IMG/VR virus record: IMGVR_UViG_3300029787_000032
Span: 1 to 62,121 of that record
Length of the DNA stretch: 62,121 nucleotides
Reading direction: 5' to 3' (one strand)
From: a virus
Every line of letters begins with the position of its first letter. The stretch's first letter is position 1. The position numbers and the translations under genes were made by a program. The notes beneath the pieces are model-generated. The model did no database searches. It worked only from the letters and a program-made list of their open reading frames with translations, and was not told the origin of the DNA. Below, in pieces: positions 14,609 to 30,938 of this stretch.

Positions 14609-17074
14609 CTACATACCCCCAAACGTATCACTTAAATTTTTAGTAATCTTCTCTGCTTTGTCCAACACTTTTTGTTCTGCATCGTTCTCTAATTTCTCTA
14701 TAGCGATAGCCGAACGAATTGCAACAGCGTCTTTTTGTTGATCAATCTTTTCTTTATCAGTTTGTTCTCGTGCTTCAGCTTTGTCTTTTTCAAGTGCAAG
14801 TTTAGCTCGAGCTTCTTTTTCTTTACGTTCGTTTTCTTCACTTCGAATGTCTAGTTCTTTTTGTTTTAACTCAACAAGTGGGTCATCTTGAGTTACGTTT
14901 AACATTTCATCCATGTCCTCAATGTACTCAGCTATTAACTGCGACTGACGAACAGCAATTAAATTTTGCATTTCTGCCATAATTTGTTGTTGCATCTGTT
15001 GCATCTCTTCTGGAGACGATCCTTGTGCTTGTTCCATTTGCTCCTGCATGGATTCTTGCATTGATTCTTGTATATCTTCTTGAGCTAGTAATGAGATGTG
15101 TTGCATAATATGTGCCTGTATATTTGACATAGCTTGTGGGTTAGTTTTTGTAATTGCACTACCAAGTAACGCAATATGTGAAGCAATATGTGCTTGATGG
15201 TCTTGTCCCGGGAATGCTTGCGCTGTCATACCTGCCGTTAACTCTGCATTTTCTAATGCAGGATCTTTTGGTTGTGGTTGAGGTGGAGGCGGCATTAAAG
15301 CCTCAATGTTTTGTACACCCATGGCCTCATACATTCTTCTGTATGCTTCAGGTAAACTGTGCATTTGTGGTGCAGCCTGCGCTAATTGTAATTGTTGTTG
15401 CGCTAAAGTCACACGTTGTGTCACTGAAAAAATGTTTGGATCAGATACAGGTATTACATCAATACGTGCATCAAAGTCTTGAGACATAATTGTTTGGTCA
15501 GCACCTACAATTTGATAAGGGTAGTTTTGAGGTAGTGTTGATGCAAATAGTTTTGCTAATAACTTAAATTCTTTTCCTTGAGCAGAATGCATTCTTTTGT
15601 GAATTGCAGACATAACTTTCATGCCTCTCTCAAGAAGAGCCATAGTCGTGCCAACAGGATTTACTTCGTTACCTTCACCAAGTTTCATGTCAGCGACAGC
15701 AGCGAATGATTTGCCACTCTCAATAACAAAACCTAATAGTTGGTATAATGTGCCAGACGGTTCTTTATATGGTAGTGGTACAAGTGAGCTTGCAATATCT
15801 CCTGCTGGAGCATCCACATCTCTAAACTCTCCGGGAACTAAAGGCTGATCGTCATCACGGATACGTAAGCCTCTTGCTTTGAAACCAGAGGGTAAGTTGG
15901 CGAGTGTGCCGGCGTCAATGAGTTGTCGTAGTATAGAGGTTGCAGACTTTGATAAACCACCAAGCATATGAATAAGACCAAAACCATAAAAGCCAAGGCC
16001 GGGTAAAAATTTGTAGTGAACAAAATATTGTTTTTTGTTTTTAAATCTATCTGCTTCATTCCAGTTTCTACGTATTGACAGTACAGTTGATGAACTCTCA
16101 TCAATAGTTACAATATAAGGTAAACTAATTCCACTTTCTTCACCTGCCTCATTGGCATCTTCGTATCCGGGTAAATCTAAATCTGTATGTATTTCTAAAA
16201 TTGTATGTATATCGTCTTTTGTATAAATTCGTTTCTTACCATCAAGAGAATCAATTTTTTCACTCACCGAGTCTGTGTCTGGATCACCCGGCTCATCCAG
16301 TTCAATGTCTCTGTAAAAACCTGTTGCTTGATATTTACGTACGTCATTTGCTGCCATCTTAACAACATGAGTAATTCGCATACATGTCATTAGATCTGTT
16401 GCATCGTAAGGTACAACGAGATCTTGAGATGATACAAATTTAGAAACAGGTCTGCCTAGTTTTTCGTCAAAGTAAACTTTACGGAACGCCGAACCTGATA
16501 ATGGAAGATGAAATAACATTTGATCAAGTTCGGGTTCATACTCCTCCATGACATGGGAAAGTTGATAATTCATATATTCTTTTACACGTTTTGACTGTGC
16601 TTCGACTTGTGGATTAGTTGCACCCATAATTTGAGTTTTTACAGGACCGCCTGCTGGAAATAATTCTTTGTACGATTGTGCTTGAAATTGTGTCACTGAT
16701 TCTGCAAGTAGTGGATGTGTTACACCAGACGCACCGGGAAACGGGTCGCTTCTGTCTTCATACGTCATGCCTAATAATCCTAAACCTTCTGCGTAGGTAG
16801 ATGCCCATTCTGCTCTAGAATCGTTATCTGCTTCATACGCCTCCATCAACTCATCTGCTATTACAGCTAAATCAGACTCGTCCATAAATTCAGCTAAGTT
16901 AGAAGTATGTTCTTCTGCTACGGGAGCATCAGAACCAAAATTAATTGTAGCGCCGCCGTCTTCGTCTAGTTCGGGGTCGCCATTTAATAATTCAACATCT
17001 TCGGGTAAAACATTTTCTGCTTCTAAATTAAACTTCATTTGTTCATTTAAAGGCATATCTTTTTCTATCGGCAT
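14609..17074 (-). CDS. Portal protein
   Basis: 821 residues. An acidic N-terminus is followed by the portal core: DRSDPFPGASGVTHPLLAESVTQFQAQSYKELFPAGGPV, YEPELDQMLFHLPLSGSAFRKVYFD, VVPYDATDL and YFVHYKFLPGLGFYGFGLIHMLGG, then a long helical region (GTTMALLERGMKVMSAIHKRMHSAQ) and a ~200-residue C-terminus rich in Gln, Met and charged coiled coil. It forms the dodecameric DNA channel at one vertex. The length and the long C-terminal helical tail fit portals of short-tailed phages with barrel-like ends. Confidence 0.88.
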   Translation of the reverse strand: MPIEKDMPLNEQMKFNLEAENVLPEDVELLNGDPELDEDGGATINFGSDAPVAEEHTSNLAEFMDESDLAVIADELMEAYEADNDSRAEWASTYAEGLGLLGMTYEDRSDPFPGASGVTHPLLAESVTQFQAQSYKELFPAGGPVKTQIMGATNPQVEAQSKRVKEYMNYQLSHVMEEYEPELDQMLFHLPLSGSAFRKVYFDEKLGRPVSKFVSSQDLVVPYDATDLMTCMRITHVVKMAANDVRKYQATGFYRDIELDEPGDPDTDSVSEKIDSLDGKKRIYTKDDIHTILEIHTDLDLPGYEDANEAGEESGISLPYIVTIDESSSTVLSIRRNWNEADRFKNKKQYFVHYKFLPGLGFYGFGLIHMLGGLSKSATSILRQLIDAGTLANLPSGFKARGLRIRDDDQPLVPGEFRDVDAPAGDIASSLVPLPYKEPSGTLYQLLGFVIESGKSFAAVADMKLGEGNEVNPVGTTMALLERGMKVMSAIHKRMHSAQGKEFKLLAKLFASTLPQNYPYQIVGADQTIMSQDFDARIDVIPVSDPNIFSVTQRVTLAQQQLQLAQAAPQMHSLPEAYRRMYEAMGVQNIEALMPPPPQPQPKDPALENAELTAGMTAQAFPGQDHQAHIASHIALLGSAITKTNPQAMSNIQAHIMQHISLLAQEDIQESMQESMQEQMEQAQGSSPEEMQQMQQQIMAEMQNLIAVRQSQLIAEYIEDMDEMLNVTQDDPLVELKQKELDIRSEENERKEKEARAKLALEKDKAEAREQTDKEKIDQQKDAVAIRSAIAIEKLENDAEQKVLDKAEKITKNLSDTFGGM

Positions 17075-22228: not shown

Positions 22229-23737
22229 TTAATAATAGACCTTTGGCCGTTGGTCGATGGGCGTGTCCTCATAATCTTGTCTCAATTGAATCAAGCCCGA
22301 TTGTCTGAATCTTAACAGAGCCTGTGTGACTGTGTCAACATAATCATCGTTCTCCCCAAATGGAAACGCCGCACACTCTTCTATCACTTCTTCAGCGAAA
22401 CGTCTACCCTCTGGATAATAAATCATGCCCGCTTCAAACATGGGTGATACTGCGTTGACCCTTGTTGTTTTATCGTTACCTCTGGTTGGTGTATAATTTG
22501 TTACGGGTATTCCTGATCGTCTAAGTTCATCGGACAACGGCATACCGCTTGACTTGGCCTCAATCAACACCATCTCAGGTTCCCAATAATTATATTCTTT
22601 GTAGGCAATCTCTTTTAGTTCAGGAAAGTCCCATCGTCCGCGCTGCGCATCCAACAAGATTAACGCTGGCCGGTGTTCGTCAGGACTGAATATACCCCAT
22701 GTTGTAATCGCACTGTAGTCAGCAGTCTCCTTCTTACTGAAGGCTGTATCGTAGCTTTGAATAATATATTGCAGAGCAGGAATATCTTTATCATCCCACG
22801 GCTGCCACCAGTCTCGTTTAAGGATAGCACCTTCTTCTGATGTCGGCTGCTGCATCCACTGTGCGTTCCATTTTGTAATCGCAAGTGATGCCTTAACACT
22901 CTCTAATTCTTCTAGCTTCCAATACTCAGGCCATGTTGGTCCACCACTGTCCATGATTGCCGGGAACTCGACAACCTCCCACTGATCGGCTTTTGGTTCA
23001 ACTTGTGCCTTTATCAATTGTCCTGTCAAATCAATCGTCGACCAACGTGTCATCACAAGAACGATTGCGCCGCCCGGCTGCAAACGTTGACGAGGACCTG
23101 ATGTATACCACTCGTAAGCGTTTTCCATGGCCGTTGTCGATAGTGCGTCTTGCTCTGAATGTGGATCATCAATAATTAATAAATCAGCACCACGACCTGT
23201 AATCGCACCACCGACACCGGCAGCGAAGTATTCGCCACCCGCACTTGTGTCCCAACGACCGGCAGCTTTTGAATCTGCTTGTAACATTGTTTCAGGAAAC
23301 ACTTCCTTATAATCACTTGAGTCAATCAACTGTTTGGTTTTACGACCGAACCGTTGTGAAAGTTCCGCGGTGTGAGACGTTTGTATAATTTTCGTTTGTG
23401 GATTTTTTCCCATAATATATGCAGGGAAAAGGTATGACGCAAACTCAGATTTGGTATGTCTAGGAGGCATATTAACTATAAGCCGCTTTAGGGTCCCATC
23501 TGCAATTTTATTAAATTTTTCTGCAATAATTTTATGGTGTCTACCTTCCACGAACCCCGGCCAAACGGATTTTACAAAAGACATAAAATCTTCTTTTGCA
23601 TTCTGATTTAATTCTATTTTTTTATTTCGTTTATATAATTCAAGGAAACGCTTAACTTCTTTATCGCCTAGTTTTTTTCTTAACTCGGGATTTGTTAAAA
23701 TTTCGTTTAATCTTTCTTCCAAACCAATTTCTGGCAT
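22229..23737 (-). CDS. terL: Terminase large subunit
   Basis: 502 residues. ATPase domain: Walker A-like PPRHTKS at 91-97, Walker B LLIIDDP with Asp190-Asp191, and coupling motif region VLVMTRWS at ~227. Nuclease domain (RNase H fold): Asp330 (SYDTAFS), Glu393 (IEAKSSG) and a late Asp in NDDYVDT. It translocates DNA into the procapsid and cuts the concatemer. Its small-subunit partner is encoded 7 kb away on the other strand. The upstream spacer carries the first 30-bp repeat. Confidence 0.95.
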   Translation of the reverse strand: MPEIGLEERLNEILTNPELRKKLGDKEVKRFLELYKRNKKIELNQNAKEDFMSFVKSVWPGFVEGRHHKIIAEKFNKIADGTLKRLIVNMPPRHTKSEFASYLFPAYIMGKNPQTKIIQTSHTAELSQRFGRKTKQLIDSSDYKEVFPETMLQADSKAAGRWDTSAGGEYFAAGVGGAITGRGADLLIIDDPHSEQDALSTTAMENAYEWYTSGPRQRLQPGGAIVLVMTRWSTIDLTGQLIKAQVEPKADQWEVVEFPAIMDSGGPTWPEYWKLEELESVKASLAITKWNAQWMQQPTSEEGAILKRDWWQPWDDKDIPALQYIIQSYDTAFSKKETADYSAITTWGIFSPDEHRPALILLDAQRGRWDFPELKEIAYKEYNYWEPEMVLIEAKSSGMPLSDELRRSGIPVTNYTPTRGNDKTTRVNAVSPMFEAGMIYYPEGRRFAEEVIEECAAFPFGENDDYVDTVTQALLRFRQSGLIQLRQDYEDTPIDQRPKVYY

Positions 23738-23860
23738 ACTCTATGTCCACATTGTTATAACACAGTATATACAAAACATTCTGCGCAAAAGGGGGTGTTG
23801 ACGAATTTTACAGCAATCAATCTAGTTTGGCAAGAGTTACAGGTACCCTACAGCTTTTCA

Positions 23861-23890
23861 GGGTGGGTGGGCCCTCGAGCTAGCAGGCGT
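23861..23890 (+). repeat. 30-bp GC-rich repeat, copy 1
   Basis: Most diverged copy: GGGTGGGTGGGCCC, variable middle TCGAGCTA, GCAGGCGT. It lies between the terminase start and the hairpin past the DUF932 gene. Nine copies of this 30-base unit occur in spacers between 23861 and 27476, all in the same orientation; the shared frame is GGGAGGGTGGGCCC, a variable tetramer to hexamer, then CCGTCAAGCGT. Confidence 0.85.
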
Positions 23891-23900
23891 ATACTACATG

Positions 23901-23928
23901 TAGTAGGTAGCCCGAAGGCTACCCACTA
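23901..23928 (-). terminator. 12-bp hairpin with UUCG loop after the DUF932 gene
   Basis: Minus strand TAGTGGGTAGCC / GGCTACCTACTA pairs over 12 bases (one G-U) around TTCG, 20 bases past the stop. No T-tract follows, so termination may be partial. The arm overlaps the perfect 14-base palindrome TACTACATGTAGTA at 23892-23905. Confidence 0.65.
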
Positions 23929-23947
23929 GATGATGTGTCAAGAGAAA

Positions 23948-24790
23948 TTAGGCTACTAATTGCATAAAGTCTTGAGACTGTAACAATTTTGTCACATCCA
24001 TTTGACGAGACAAGTACACGTTATTAACGTCTGCGGTCTTGCGTGCCTCGTGATGCGTTGCCCACTCGGTTACACCATTGTAGACGCTGTATAAGTCAAT
24101 CTTATCAATAGAGCCTCGGTTATTACTCTCGACGTATTCCATGATTTGATTTTCTTTTACTTCATTCTTTGCAATGGTATTTTTAAGAGTGTTTCTAATC
24201 GTCTTAAGATCTACCACTGTATTAGCATAAGTTTGAAGTTGTTTATCAAAATGATCTACAGCACTTTTAAACATACTAATTTTATTGTACTCGTTTCCAA
24301 ATACATCGCTGTTAGTGTGTTTTTTAAATGCTTGAACACCAGAGTCTTTATCTAATGCAACCATTCCGTTTAAACATACAAGACGCATTAAGCCAAAACA
24401 TATAGAGGCTTTCCTTGAGCCGTCATAACTATTGATTAAAGTTATTTGAGCTTTTACGGCATCGCCTTCAACTGGGTTAATAACTTCTCTATTAAATGTC
24501 ATAGTTCGAGAATTAACCCCACCATATGCCCATTTGCGGTCGACTATTCCTACGTCCGCTATATTAACACCATTCTCAATTAATCGAGCGTTGATGTTTT
24601 CTAGCATAGTATCAGTTCTATTAATGTGATACTGACCAGCAAAATTGCCTATTCGTTTATTATTAACAAACACGTCTTGCCCTAAGTACTGCATGCCATC
24701 GATTACGGCATTAGTTCTCATTTCAATTTGATCGTCTTGAAATACTGACAAATCATGAATGTTACTATGTTTTACTTTTACGTTTTCCAT
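23948..24790 (-). CDS. DUF932-family protein
   Basis: 280 residues. The central ICFGLMRLVCLNGMVALDKDSG and the preceding FNREVINPVEGDAVKAQITLINSYDGSRKAS match the DUF932 (phage/plasmid YfjQ-like) family, whose members occur on phages, plasmids and integrative elements with no settled biochemical role. The C-terminal half is helical. It is the first minus-strand gene next to the repeat-rich divergent spacer, so it is probably early. Confidence 0.82.
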   Translation of the reverse strand: MENVKVKHSNIHDLSVFQDDQIEMRTNAVIDGMQYLGQDVFVNNKRIGNFAGQYHINRTDTMLENINARLIENGVNIADVGIVDRKWAYGGVNSRTMTFNREVINPVEGDAVKAQITLINSYDGSRKASICFGLMRLVCLNGMVALDKDSGVQAFKKHTNSDVFGNEYNKISMFKSAVDHFDKQLQTYANTVVDLKTIRNTLKNTIAKNEVKENQIMEYVESNNRGSIDKIDLYSVYNGVTEWATHHEARKTADVNNVYLSRQMDVTKLLQSQDFMQLVA

Positions 24791-25067
24791 ATTATTACTT
24801 TCTGAGATCTTTGATCCCTGTTAGATTACGGGCGCATTATTGCTCCCGCTTGTTTGAGATTTAAGAGCTTAGGCTCCGAGCTGGAAACCAGATTGAGTAT
24901 ATAGCTAATCAAAGTCCGATTTTGTAAACTATATAAACCGCCTACCAGACAACGAAAATTATATAGATTTATACTATATAAGCAAGTACTTTATATTAAA
25001 TAATATAGGTCTATATCTTGTATGTATCAGACTGATATACACAAGTTCAATTTTTTTTTTTTTTTGT
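24791..25067. other. AT-rich divergent spacer, candidate regulatory or origin region
   Basis: About 280 bases without a gene between the DUF932 gene and the plus-strand gene at 25202. It has strings of TATATA-type sequence, an imperfect 13-base inverted repeat TTGTATGTATCAG / CTGATATACACAA (25021-25047), the word CAGACAACG that recurs in two other spacers, and a run of 15 T at 25051-25065 just before the tandem repeat copies. Low melting temperature plus adjacent repeats fits an origin or early control region; this is inference. Confidence 0.45.
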
Positions 25068-25131
25068 AATGGTGGGTGGGCCCTAGAGTTGTCAAGCGTA
25101 ATGGTGGGTGGGCCCTAGAGTTGTCAAGCGT
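25068..25131 (+). repeat. 30-bp repeat, copies 2 and 3 in exact tandem
   Basis: Two identical 32-base units (25068-25099 and 25100-25131), each AAT plus GGTGGGTGGGCCC, TAGAGTT and GTCAAGCGT. Exact identity suggests recent duplication. The last GTCAAGCGT forms one arm of the inverted repeat at 25125-25147. Confidence 0.92.
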
Positions 25132-25147
25132 TAAAAAATAACGCTTG
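25125..25147. promoter_or_regulatory. Inverted repeat next to plus-strand promoter
   Basis: CAAGCGTTA and TAACGCTTG are perfect nine-base arms around AAAAA. The left arm is the end of repeat copy 3, the right arm overlaps the -35 box of the promoter at 25145. It is a candidate operator that ties the repeats to control of the 25202 gene. Confidence 0.5.
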
Positions 25148-25173
25148 TCATCTTTCGTTATCTACTATAGAAT
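25145..25173 (+). promoter_or_regulatory. Sigma70-type promoter with TTATCTACT box
   Basis: TTGTCA (25145-25150), 17 bases, TAGAAT (25168-25173). The spacer holds TTATCTACT (25158-25166), a box that recurs at 26766, 27293 and, as a full dyad, at 35308-35334. Drives the 25202-25507 gene. Confidence 0.6.
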
Positions 25174-25201
25174 ATGGGATATTAGAAAGGAGGTGATTAG
25201 A

Positions 25202-25507
25202 ATGGACAGAGACCCAAGGAAACACTCCTACACAACTACAGTGATTGAGCTGATAGAGTGGGAGCGCTTCGATAACACAGGACACACGCCCAAAGAATGG
25301 GCGCTGGTTCGAATGATGGAAGCGGCTAAAATTGAGTTAGCACGCATTGAAGATGCTAAAGAAAACGGATACGAAATCGGTTTAACTAAAAAGTATATTG
25401 ATGCGTTCAAAAAACTCAACAACGATCTGTTGGACAAGTACCATGAGTTGACGGGCGGAGACGCACACAGTTACTACATGGAAACAGATCCTAAGTACCA
25501 AGACTGA
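25202..25507 (+). CDS. Small plus-strand protein of unknown function
   Basis: 101 residues from the ATG with a perfect AGGAGG site; longer upstream readings are not needed. MDRDPRKHSYTTTVIELIEWERFDNTGHTPKEWALVRMMEAAKIELARIEDAKENGYEIGLTKKYIDAFKKLNNDLLDKYHEL in parts is mainly helical and charged. It has its own promoter and terminator, the form of an independently expressed early or moron-like gene. No family is recognised. Confidence 0.75.
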   Translation: MDRDPRKHSYTTTVIELIEWERFDNTGHTPKEWALVRMMEAAKIELARIEDAKENGYEIGLTKKYIDAFKKLNNDLLDKYHELTGGDAHSYYMETDPKYQD

Positions 25508-25516
25508 ACCGCGCGC

Positions 25517-25548
25517 GGGGGAGAGATAAGACTCTCCCCCTTTTTATT
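25517..25548 (+). terminator. Rho-independent terminator
   Basis: GGGGGAGAG / CTCTCCCCC, nine base pairs with a six-base loop, followed by TTTTTATTTATTTTTT, ten bases after the plus-strand gene's stop. Confidence 0.92.
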
Positions 25549-25557
25549 TATTTTTTA

Positions 25558-25587
25558 GGGAGGGTGGGCCCGTTGGCCGTCAAGCGT
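25558..25587 (+). repeat. 30-bp repeat, copy 4
   Basis: GGGAGGGTGGGCCC, GTTGG, CCGTCAAGCGT. It lies directly after the T-tract of the plus-strand terminator and overlaps the hairpin at 25586-25615 by two bases. Confidence 0.9.
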
Positions 25588-25615
25588 CAACCGTGGTTCG
25601 TTGTCCACGGTTGAC
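25586..25615 (-). terminator. Perfect 11-bp hairpin past the 25625 gene
   Basis: GTCAACCGTGG / CCACGGTTGAC around an eight-base loop. It stands ten bases after the stop of the minus-strand gene at 25625. No T-tract follows; a termination, RNA-stability or protein-binding role are all possible. Confidence 0.5.
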
Positions 25616-25624
25616 GGTCGTTCT

Positions 25625-25747
25625 CTAACGGGAAACCTTTTCTTTGACGAGGTGTCGTTTAATTTCGACGCCTCTCTGTTTCGCTTTCCGTTCTCCTTCT
25701 TTCACTTTCTGTTGGACAAGGGACAACAGTTCTTTGAAAGTAATCAT
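25625..25747 (-). CDS. Small basic helical protein, 40 residues
   Basis: MITFKELLSLVQQKVKEGERKAKQRGVEIKRHLVKEKVSR, in two halves one long amphipathic basic helix. The ATG overlaps the upstream TGA (ATGA) and has AGGGA six bases before it, so coupled translation is likely. Function unknown. Confidence 0.6.
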   Translation of the reverse strand: MITFKELLSLVQQKVKEGERKAKQRGVEIKRHLVKEKVSR

Positions 25748-26235
25748 GATGCTTCCCTGTCTAAGTAGTCTACGTATGAAAGACAGACCACATCTCTTAT
25801 CGGACATACCATAGATTCTTTCCGTGTCGAACGTACCGAGTGGAATAGTCCGTCAGTCCAGTCTGAGGTGTTGCCGTCAGATGAGATCTTTTCCATTGGA
25901 TGAGCAGATCGATTTTGTTGAGGTGGGGAGTCTGTTAGGTTGTATAACGCACAAAGGACAGCAACTACATATTTATCATATGGCTTACGTGCTGTCTTGC
26001 AAAAGTCGAACGCCTCTCCTTTCTTTTTAGTGATGAGGAATGTTTCGTGGCTGTCTTCACCTAGTCCATTGAACCAGACACGATCGCCGTTTACCTCTGG
26101 CTTTCCGCCGTCACCGAACCCGTCAGATAATATACCTTCGTTATCTGCTATGATTAAGTTTGTTAGTCGAACAAATTCTTCCCATTCAGCGTCTGTAAAG
26201 TCTCTGTTCTGTCTCCAGTAATGAGTGTAGCCCAT
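25744..26235 (-). CDS. MGYTHYW-type conserved protein
   Basis: 163 residues. MGYTHYWRQNRDFTDAEWEEFVRLTNLII, then VWFNGLGEDSHETFLITKKKGEAFDFCKTARKPYDKYVVAVLCALYNLT and EKISSDGNTSDWTDGLFHS. This is a widespread uncharacterised phage and bacterial family. The region between the core and ISSDG (TDSPPQQNRSAHPM) and the tail after FHS look less conserved; a late frameshift is possible but not shown. Function unknown. Confidence 0.78.
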   Translation of the reverse strand: MGYTHYWRQNRDFTDAEWEEFVRLTNLIIADNEGILSDGFGDGGKPEVNGDRVWFNGLGEDSHETFLITKKKGEAFDFCKTARKPYDKYVVAVLCALYNLTDSPPQQNRSAHPMEKISSDGNTSDWTDGLFHSVRSTRKESMVCPIRDVVCLSYVDYLDREAS

Positions 26236-26693
26236 TATTTATCCTCCTTTTTTTGTTTTTCAATAATATCATTATTATATACGCCAACCCTTTCTAATAC
26301 TTCAGTCCAAGTATCGCAAAAATGTTCCTCGTAATATGGATCAGCTTCATCACCACTATCATAATGGCCATAAACAAAAAATACCCCTGACTCATTAATG
26401 TCTAGTATGATATCTTTATGCTTGTTAATCATTTTTTTAGCCATTGCTTTCATATCAAATTCATAGTCAATTACTTCGCTATTTACTTTATATGGTCTTT
26501 GTAATTCTTGAATATCTTCTATTTTCATTTCAAGTGCAGTAATTTGTTGTTGCAACTTTGAAATTCTAAAATCATATTCTTGAACTTTTTGATCTGATTT
26601 TTCTTTAATGCTTAAAAGAAAAGAATCGTGACTATAAAACTCATCTCTTTTAACATCTACTGATTTTGCTGTGTTAAGTATTCTATGTAACAT
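26235..26693 (-). CDS. Coiled-coil protein of unknown function
   Basis: 152 residues. A long central helix (KSDQKVQEYDFRISKLQQQITALEMKIEDIQELQ in parts) predicts a coiled coil, followed by FDMKAMAKKMINKHKDIILDINESGVFFVYGHYDSGDE and an acidic, aromatic stretch. The stop overlaps the next start by one base. It has its own promoter. Unknown function, probably early. Confidence 0.68.
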   Translation of the reverse strand: MLHRILNTAKSVDVKRDEFYSHDSFLLSIKEKSDQKVQEYDFRISKLQQQITALEMKIEDIQELQRPYKVNSEVIDYEFDMKAMAKKMINKHKDIILDINESGVFFVYGHYDSGDEADPYYEEHFCDTWTEVLERVGVYNNDIIEKQKKEDK

Positions 26694-26720
26694 TATTTTT
26701 CCTTTGTTAGATTTAATGTA

Positions 26721-26748
26721 AACATAGCATAATCAAGGATAAGGTCAA
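26721..26748 (-). promoter_or_regulatory. Candidate promoter for the 26235-26693 gene
   Basis: Minus strand TTGACC (26748-26743), 16 bases, TATGTT (26726-26721), about 28 bases before the start codon. Confidence 0.5.
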
Positions 26749-26765
26749 CAACTATTTTCTTTTTG

Positions 26766-26790
26766 TTATCTACTGTGGCATTTATGCAAC
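26766..26790 (+). promoter_or_regulatory. Shared spacer box, copy in the parS spacer
   Basis: TTATCTACTGTGGCATTTATGC here matches TTATCTACTGTGACATTTATGC at 27293 with one change, and the TTATCTACT part matches 25158 and the dyad at 35308. Each is in a spacer near 30-bp repeats or a promoter. Written here in parts: TTATCTACT then GTGGCATTTATGC. Confidence 0.6.
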
Positions 26791-26810
26791 ACCCTCGTCA
26801 GACAACGTAA

Positions 26811-26826
26811 TGTTTCACGTGAAACA
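26811..26826. promoter_or_regulatory. parS-type ParB-binding site (perfect palindrome)
   Basis: TGTTTCACGTGAAACA, a perfect 16-base palindrome identical to the canonical bacterial chromosomal parS sequence bound by ParB (Spo0J) proteins. It lies in the spacer between the genes at 26235-26693 and 26936-27205, nine bases from two 30-bp repeats. No parA or parB gene is seen in the window. A half-site, GTTTCAC, stands at the matching place in the next spacer (27351-27357). Confidence 0.85.
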
Positions 26827-26834
26827 ATTTAATA

Positions 26835-26895
26835 GGGCGGGTGGGCCCATGAACCGTCAAGCGTAGGGAGGGTGGGCCCTTGAAGCGTCAAGCGT
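26835..26895 (+). repeat. 30-bp repeat, copies 5 and 6
   Basis: 26835-26864 (GGGCGGGTGGGCCC, ATGAA, CCGTCAAGCGT) and 26866-26895 (GGGAGGGTGGGCCC, TTGAA, GCGTCAAGCGT), one base apart, directly after the parS palindrome. Confidence 0.92.
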
Positions 26896-26923
26896 TGTCC
26901 ACGGTCAATGACCGTGGACAACG
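26893..26923. terminator. 31-bp perfect palindrome past the 26936 gene
   Basis: Arms CGTTGTCCACGGTCA and its exact complement around a single A. It begins inside repeat copy 6 and ends 13 bases from the stop of the minus-strand gene at 26936. It may form a terminator-like hairpin or cruciform, or bind a dimeric protein. No T-tract follows. Confidence 0.6.
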
Positions 26924-26935
26924 GATCGTGGTTAA

Positions 26936-27205
26936 CTAAACCTCGTAGACACCCAACGTACCCGGGTCGTACCATTCGGCGTACAGGCCATGCTTGTCCA
27001 AGATAGTGTTGATCTTTGGATTAACTCCAAAGTCATCTAAGCCCAACTCAGCTTCGTTGAAACCAATCGCCCAGTAGTCTGCCCAGTTCTCTCCAGTCTC
27101 AGCATTAATGCGGAAACGGTCTGGGTTGTCGTTCATGTCTCCTTGGATAACAGGAACACCGATTGCTTTTAATTCGTTGTATGCTTTTTCGTATTGTTTT
27201 TTCAT
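26936..27205 (-). CDS. Small acidic protein of unknown function
   Basis: 89 residues: MKKQYEKAYNELKAIGVPVIQGDMNDNPDRFRINAETGENWADYWAIGFNEAELGLDDFGVNPKINTILDKHGLYAEWYDPGTLGVYEV in parts; alpha/beta, acidic. Small proteins with the NWADYW...LDDFGVNPKIN core occur in many phages, without known function. A weak minus-strand promoter (TTGTAT, 16 bases, TAGGCT) lies near 27240-27267. Confidence 0.68.
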   Translation of the reverse strand: MKKQYEKAYNELKAIGVPVIQGDMNDNPDRFRINAETGENWADYWAIGFNEAELGLDDFGVNPKINTILDKHGLYAEWYDPGTLGVYEV

Positions 27206-27292
27206 ATCATTTTTCCTTGTTTGTTAGAGTTACCTTAGCCTAGCAGATTGTGGGATAGATACAACCCCTTTTTTCACTTTCTTTCACTTTTA

Positions 27293-27315
27293 TTATCTAC
27301 TGTGACATTTATGCC
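27293..27315 (+). promoter_or_regulatory. Shared spacer box, second copy
   Basis: TTATCTACT followed by GTGACATTTATGCC, nearly the same as at 26766. It is followed, as there, by CAGACAACGTA (27340-27350) and a GTTTCAC half parS before the 30-bp repeats, so the two spacers are related by duplication. Confidence 0.6.
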
Positions 27316-27360
27316 ACACTGTATAACGAGCTGTTATGTCAGACAACGTAGTTTCACTTG

Positions 27361-27476
27361 GGGAGGGAGGGCCCGTGAGCCGTCATGCGTGATTCAGGGA
27401 GGGTGGGCCCGTGAACCGTCAAGCGTGGACAACGAACCACGGACAAGGGTGGGTGGGCCCGTGAACCGTCAGGCGT
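27361..27476 (+). repeat. 30-bp repeat, copies 7, 8 and 9
   Basis: 27361-27390, 27397-27426 and 27447-27476. Copy 8 equals the consensus (GGGAGGGTGGGCCC, GTGAA, CCGTCAAGCGT). Between copies 8 and 9 lies GTGGACAACGAACCACGG, made of the same short words found in the palindromes at 25586 and 26893. An apparent plus-strand frame through these repeats is not a gene. Confidence 0.92.
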
Positions 27477-27490
27477 AGATTAGAATGATT

Positions 27491-27880
27491 CTAAACTAGA
27501 AGATCTTGGAGCATGTCCCATTGGACAAGGTCATGCGTATCGTGGACAACGAACAACGGCTCGTGGTTCGTTAATTTTACTCGTGGTTCGCTAGCTAGTG
27601 TACCTTGAAAAAGTTTTACGGCTGACTGACAACGGCTCGTTGTCATAATAAATTTGGAGCCGTAATTGGTCAGATGAAAGGCGACTTGGTGGGCTGAAAA
27701 CACTATCGTATCGGAGGCATTTGTTACTTTAAGTTCCACTGTAAAAAAATGGCTATTGGCTTGGCTTCCAATAAGGTCTGGGAAGCCTCGATTGACAGAA
27801 TTTTCTATTCTATTCCAACGAATTCTGGGGGTACGTTGTTTAATGAGTTTCCATAATTTTGTTTCGTTTTTACCACTCAT
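27491..27880 (-). CDS. VRR-NUC / PD-(D/E)XK-type nuclease
   Basis: 129 residues. Motifs: RIENSVNRGFPDLIG with Glu26 and Asp35, FFTVELKV with Glu49 and Lys51, and SAHQVAFHLTNYGSKF after it. This is the VRR-NUC layout (Holliday-junction or structure-specific nucleases), cutting DNA with a bound metal. The C-terminal ~35 residues are encoded by CGTTGTCCACG-like words related to the nearby repeats and look like an extension built from them. Probably acts in recombination or replication fork processing. Confidence 0.8.
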   Translation of the reverse strand: MSGKNETKLWKLIKQRTPRIRWNRIENSVNRGFPDLIGSQANSHFFTVELKVTNASDTIVFSAHQVAFHLTNYGSKFIMTTSRCQSAVKLFQGTLASEPRVKLTNHEPLFVVHDTHDLVQWDMLQDLLV

Positions 27881-30407: not shown

Positions 30408-30938
30408 ATGTCGAGAAGAAAGCACCTTACACCCCAACAACTAAAATTCGTTAATCTTTTGGTATACAACGAAGGACGTTTAACGGCTACAGAATGTGCT
30501 GTCCAAAGCGGTTACGCTAAAGAACGAGCAAGGTCGTCAGCTAGTGAACTACAGAATTCAAATTACTATCCTCTCGTTGTACAAGAAATCAACAAGCTCA
30601 GAAAAGAAGTGAACGAGAAATATCGAGCATCTCTGGAAACCCACATGCGCGATTTAGCGGACATCAAGCGTAGAGCACTAGAAGAGAACTCATTTTCGGC
30701 GGCTGTACAAGCAGAAGTTGCAAGAGGCAAAGCGGCAGGACTGTACCACGAAACTAAGACCATCATGCATGGAAAGATAGATCAGCTATCGGCTGAAGAA
30801 GTTCGCAAAGAACTAGAGTCAATAGCCAACCAAATCAATCCAAAGATTGTTGAAGGCAAGGCAGAAGAAATTATAAACAAGAGAAAGATCAAGCGTAATG
30901 AAAAAGAAAAGCAGACCACAAGTAGTGAAGACGCCTGA
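30408..30938 (+). CDS. terS: Terminase small subunit
   Basis: 176 residues. The N-terminal DNA-binding part reads LTPQQLKFVNLLVYNEGRLTATECAVQSGYAKERARSSASELQN, the helix-turn-helix form of Terminase_2-type small subunits. It is followed by an oligomerisation helix pair (AALEENSFSAAVQAEVARGKAAGLY-like) and a basic, charged tail. It should recognise the packaging site and load the large subunit. It is unusual in lying ~6.7 kb from the large subunit and on the opposite strand. A ribosome site AAGGAG precedes it. Confidence 0.82.
   Translation: MSRRKHLTPQQLKFVNLLVYNEGRLTATECAVQSGYAKERARSSASELQNSNYYPLVVQEINKLRKEVNEKYRASLETHMRDLADIKRRALEENSFSAAVQAEVARGKAAGLYHETKTIMHGKIDQLSAEEVRKELESIANQINPKIVEGKAEEIINKRKIKRNEKEKQTTSSEDA

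Follow-up and report, generated by a model that had tools for sequence, protein, structure and literature searches.

Why does a phage genome with no recognisable partition genes of its own carry a perfect copy of the site at which ParB loads on bacterial chromosomes? The DNA analysed here (62,121 bases; hereafter the window) contains a single exact copy of TGTTTCACGTGAAACA, located at positions 26811-26826. As an earlier note on this DNA had proposed, this palindrome matches exactly the consensus of the chromosomal ParB/Spo0J-type parS site (TGTTnCACGTGnAACA). The second-best match in the window has 3 mismatches, which is the level of chance. Under Markov models of the window (order 1 to order 3), only 2e-5 to 6e-5 exact copies would be expected, which bears out the view taken in that note that a random exact match is very unlikely (about 1e-5). 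The site was also correctly placed in a non-coding spacer, i.e. a 242-bp gap (26694-26935) separating two minus-strand ORFs (26235-26693 and 26936-27205). The features of this region are as follows:

22229-23737, minus strand: terminase large subunit, TerL (PHROG 38, E 4e-109)
26235-26693, minus strand: ORF of 152 aa, the first gene read from the promoter-like element (no PHROGs match)
26721-26748, minus strand: promoter-like element TTGACC-16-TATGTT, its second hexamer preceded by TG (consensus scan)
26811-26826, no strand assigned: parS site, predicted host-ParB loading site (exact consensus match)
26834-26903, plus strand: two repeat copies adjoining parS, members of a nine-copy family of 31-39 bp
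26936-27205, minus strand: ORF of 89 aa on the other flank of parS (no assigned function)
27150-27480, minus strand: paralogous leader of the neighbouring gene (alignment)
27491-27880, minus strand: nuclease-like gene (PHROG 2165)
30408-30938, plus strand: terminase small subunit (PHROG 51, E 4.5e-10)

The window represents a phage of about 60 kb, in which TerL, a portal protein, a PolA-type DNA polymerase, a helicase and a primase were recognised. Its nearest named relatives, which share 60-65% identity with it in TerL and 47-52% in PolA, include phage 023Pt_psg01 and the Pelagibacter phages HTVC027P and HTVC023P. The TerL and DNA polymerase are homologous to those of HTVC023P and HTVC027P, which relates the phage to the HTVC023P-type pelagiphages, with only a tentative placement by clade. 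Pelagiphages of this type are described as widespread and among the most abundant (PMC9599517).

Neither gene of a ParABS system of its own, parB or parA, was found in the window. Searches of all six frames gave no match to the ParA-type family (PF13614) or to ParB_N (PF02195), even at E ≤ 1, in agreement with the earlier claim that the phage has no ParA or ParB homologue; a ParB of another fold would escape such a search. The same holds for a wider sample: ParB_N was not found in 49 related records, 24 sister-clade records and 27 longer records of all phage groups (three partly overlapping sets), nor were ParA-type ATPases found in the last of these, and ParB_N is also missing from 23 of 26 other parS-bearing viral records. 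That this phage and many of its relatives have an exact parS but no Par genes of their own suggests that they borrow the segregation protein of the host during infection. No integrase or plasmid partition gene occurs among the 25 of 34 Pfam families listed for the window, which shows no sign of long-term carriage; this counts against a role in partition.

A different answer would be that the match arose by chance in one genome, and the closest relatives lend it something. Several of them have no site, L122 being an example, and among the 50 records with the closest TerL only six match parS with at most one mismatch. In two of these six, HTVC023P and L189, the core is broken; the near-matches of HTVC023P, which disrupt CACGTG, were not counted. 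HTVC027P was likewise discounted as a cultured carrier of parS, because its one-mismatch sequence CGTTTCACGTGAAACA is explained by codons for a conserved AFHVKH stretch of a nuclease. The best cases are L124 and L125 (TerL identity 82%), both of which carry the variant TGTTTCACGTGGAACA. In L125, this variant occupies the same interval between the nuclease and TerL genes as in the window (nuclease - parS - TerL), which speaks against chance. No parS was found in the cultured Roseobacter phages CRP-901 and CRP-902 or in the Manatee Spring phage MW202675, of each of which 49-50 kb was scanned. A TerL tree of 155 rows, which include rows chosen for parS, requires by parsimony at least 15 changes in parS presence. 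The position of the site is fixed within sub-lineages and otherwise variable, mostly within about 5 kb of TerL. The expectation that close relatives would carry the same 16-mer at the same locus is thus borne out only in part: a few of them, such as L124 and L125, carry the site in the form of a variant, L122 does not, and in respect of position the expectation does not hold generally. In HTVC027P, a VRR-NUC-like nuclease gene homologous to window positions 27491-27880 is unannotated (L203:7665-7970); it lies in an annotation gap between gp31 and gp32.

The case against chance is decided on a larger scale. At least 120 exact-parS loci were found in IMG/VR, whereas a control palindrome, made by reversal and equal in composition, gave one. 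Judged by TerL, portal or capsid, about 36 of the 120 exact-parS matches listed belong to relatives of this phage (one of them, L092, by a weak assignment). Two further sets of loci, from a sister clade and from a distant family, were fetched by TerL alone, which removes selection on parS. In the sister clade (query, the TerL of L093; 75 loci whose upstream sequence spans 200 bp or more), parS is present in 43 of the 75 TerL leaders, 56-166 bp upstream of the TerL match. Conservation is all-or-none: the best match per leader has 0 mismatches in 41 cases, 1 in two and at least 5 in 32, with nothing between 1 and 5, and shuffled leaders yield best matches with 5-8 mismatches. In these loci 43 sites were observed, against 0.00017 exact copies expected, and the flanks of the site differ freely. 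Given such overwhelming enrichment across the lineage, in addition to the low number of copies expected in the window, a chance origin appears extremely improbable.

Where parS does vary, the changes fall at the two N positions of the consensus (TGTTTCACGTGGAACA, TGTTCCACGTGGAACA); those at an outer base are rare, and a single core change was observed (L413). The 16-mer is therefore under purifying selection that leaves the two N positions free to vary, as is evident across the lineage rather than from one genome. Variation confined almost entirely to positions at which ParB tolerates change supports the predicted identity of the site as parS. It could be supposed instead that the palindrome is used by a phage-encoded DNA-binding protein, or as an RNA hairpin or terminator, its likeness to parS being coincidental; the palindrome does lie near promoters, and many phage proteins have no assigned function. 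This is very unlikely, however, since there are almost no compensatory changes, most variants break the symmetry at positions that ParB ignores, and no intrinsic terminator (GC stem plus T run) was detected at 26600-27500. Moreover, the same exact 16-mer recurs in distant phage families and on host chromosomes, and a consensus variant of it in phage phi29.

Presence of parS in the sister clade follows the G+C content of the locus: the site was found in 36 of 36 loci with a GC of at least 0.5 and in none of 22 below 0.42. Independent pairs are few, and this link may be mostly a matter of shared ancestry; it may also reflect the host group. Members of this clade with and without parS (L349-L428) also share a conserved AGGG(G/T)CCCC box about 10 bp before the TerL start, which could be a ribosome binding or packaging cut site.

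The distant family (L437-L515, apparently aquatic) was reached through the TerL of L044, which is 28% identical to that of the window. Of its 53 loci whose upstream sequence spans 2 kb or more, 29 contain sites; these number 107 (106 exact), and all lie upstream of TerL, with none downstream. They form arrays of 1-5 sites, 0.1-4.8 kb from TerL. Thirteen whole parS-bearing records (21-61 kb) were scanned and carry 1-5 sites each, with the same clustering as the loci upstream of TerL. The longer records of the family have no recognisable ParB or ParA. Judged by their arrangement, these arrays look like a centromere or a ParB sink, unlike a lone operator.

Cultured relatives of this phage infect SAR11, and the likely host machinery can be examined in that group. 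By means of a 16S signature, 25 partial SAR11 genomes were located, of which 13 have a parS match; each of the 13 contains exactly one, and it is always TGTTTCACGTGAAACA. In the three genomes inspected, the site lies inside rsmG and is followed by parA and parB. The 16 bp of the window are thus identical to a chromosomal parS of SAR11, the host of the cultured relatives and a candidate host of the window phage. The setting differs: chromosomal parS sites lie near the bacterial origin, whereas that of the window lies beside terminase genes in a genome without parAB. The residues of Caulobacter ParB that read parS are 170-173 and 201 (PMC7383237). SAR11 ParB, matched by eye, retains GKSR, the equivalent of Caulobacter 170-173, and the glycine of AGH, the equivalent of G201. 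It is very probable that host ParB binds the phage site in infected cells. The proposal of the earlier note that a phage without ParAB recruits host ParB therefore appears well supported, on sequence grounds, by the conserved 16-mer, its identity with the SAR11 site and the lack of Par genes.

Alternatively, replicating phage genomes might act as a decoy that titrates host ParB, disturbing segregation or freeing the origin region for the phage. The SAR11 genomes with a match hold one parS, so few phage copies would equal or exceed the host site number, and as many as five sites per genome occur in the distant family. Most sister-clade genomes, by contrast, have one site, fewer than would be expected of an evolved decoy, and a decoy has no need for placement near TerL. 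We therefore regard this role as improbable.

According to the explanation that we consider probable, the 16-mer is a true parS, and docking of host ParB lets the phage DNA use the host partition machinery. The phage would contribute only the site, a cis-acting centromere recognised by host ParB, and both ParA and ParB would come from the host. ParB-CTP clamps would load from parS onto the phage DNA and slide along it. The chromosome-segregation machinery of the host would then hold, position or segregate the intracellular phage genome and so prevent its loss from a slow-growing, starved or dividing infected cell. Against this stand the patchy presence of parS, the small number of good sites in the 50 closest records and the 0 of 22 low-GC members of the sister clade. 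Nor does partition alone account for the clustering of sites near TerL, in many cases at promoters.

The promoter-like element of the window is located 62 bp from parS and points towards ORF 26235-26693 and TerL; parS lies upstream of it on the minus strand, which is the strand of TerL. Homologous promoters adjoin parS in L124 and L125, and in the latter the site is flanked by two perfect sigma-70 promoters. The leader at 27150-27480 aligns with that containing parS and has the same promoter region and repeats, but lacks the site. As to the two 30-bp repeats noted earlier beside parS, they are indeed present (26834-26903), but belong to a GC-rich family of 31-39 bp (GGGTGGGCCC...CGTCAAGCGT; also AGGGNGGGTGGGCCC...CGTCAAGCGT) with nine copies upstream of TerL (23860-27484). 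Elsewhere only partial copies were seen, in L142, L193 and L194. The repeats do not travel with parS.

This arrangement suggests a further possibility, namely that host ParB acts as a regulator which, bound at parS or sliding from it, represses promoters beside the terminase and late genes. It could even serve as a copy-number timer, in which multiplication of the phage genome dilutes ParB and releases the promoters. Repression by Pseudomonas ParB of promoters beside parS3 and parS4 has been reported (PMC5521831, PMC7022226). We take regulation most seriously among the alternatives, because many sites are promoter-proximal near TerL, as in the sister clade, L125 and the window, and because of this Pseudomonas precedent. 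Even so, it seems rather unlikely. In other relatives, parS is found at distances of 1-4 kb, on the downstream side of TerL or within large genes; the arrays, in which as many as five sites lie 0.1-4.8 kb upstream, do not resemble an operator; and intergenic placement by itself brings a site near promoters. Partition or positioning is the main function that we favour, albeit tentatively and by analogy with phage phi29. A broader idea is possible, if doubtful: mimicry of the host centromere may be widespread among aquatic phages and may have arisen in them repeatedly, with one parS or an array beside the terminase genes coupling host ParB clamps to genome retention and to the timing of packaging-gene expression.

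Known systems resemble this one in part. Phage-plasmids and extrachromosomal prophages, e.g. those of mycobacteria, likewise carry a centromere on phage DNA; they encode their own parABS (PMC7157519), whereas no Par proteins were found here. Phages of Alphaproteobacteria with CtrA sites ('lytic deferment', PMC9437464) also carry sites for a host cell-cycle protein, but CtrA is a transcription factor, whereas ParB is a partition clamp whose effects on transcription are merely secondary. The nearest parallel is Bacillus phage phi29, which has four TGTTTCACGTGGAACA sites. Host Spo0J traps the phi29 genome in spores, according to the account of Meijer et al. 2005 given in PMC9437464. Like the window phage, phi29 bears consensus parS on its DNA without a ParB of its own, and it uses host Spo0J; it may thus be taken as a precedent, showing that a lytic phage can profit from this host protein. 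It differs in being an unrelated phage of a sporulating Gram-positive host, with entrapment in spores as the outcome. The phages described here carry one site or TerL-linked arrays, and the SAR11 hosts of their cultured relatives form no spores.

The use of phage-borne parS by host ParB is therefore already known from phi29. What appears to be new is the presence of parS in an abundant aquatic phage lineage, its all-or-none conservation and its link with the terminase region. Neither parS nor ParB is mentioned in a survey that covered 80 HTVC023P-type genomes (PMC9599517), and we found no paper describing phage parS in these lineages in the open-licence literature; reports in subscription journals may exist. 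Should host ParB bind these sites, aquatic phages would commonly target or exploit the segregation of bacterial chromosomes, well beyond the case of phi29, and a single site would provide a testable link that joins the replication and packaging of the phage to the partition system of the host. In phi29 itself (L347), the sites at 15903 and 17243 flank the packaging ATPase gene 16, which echoes the terminase link of the aquatic phages.
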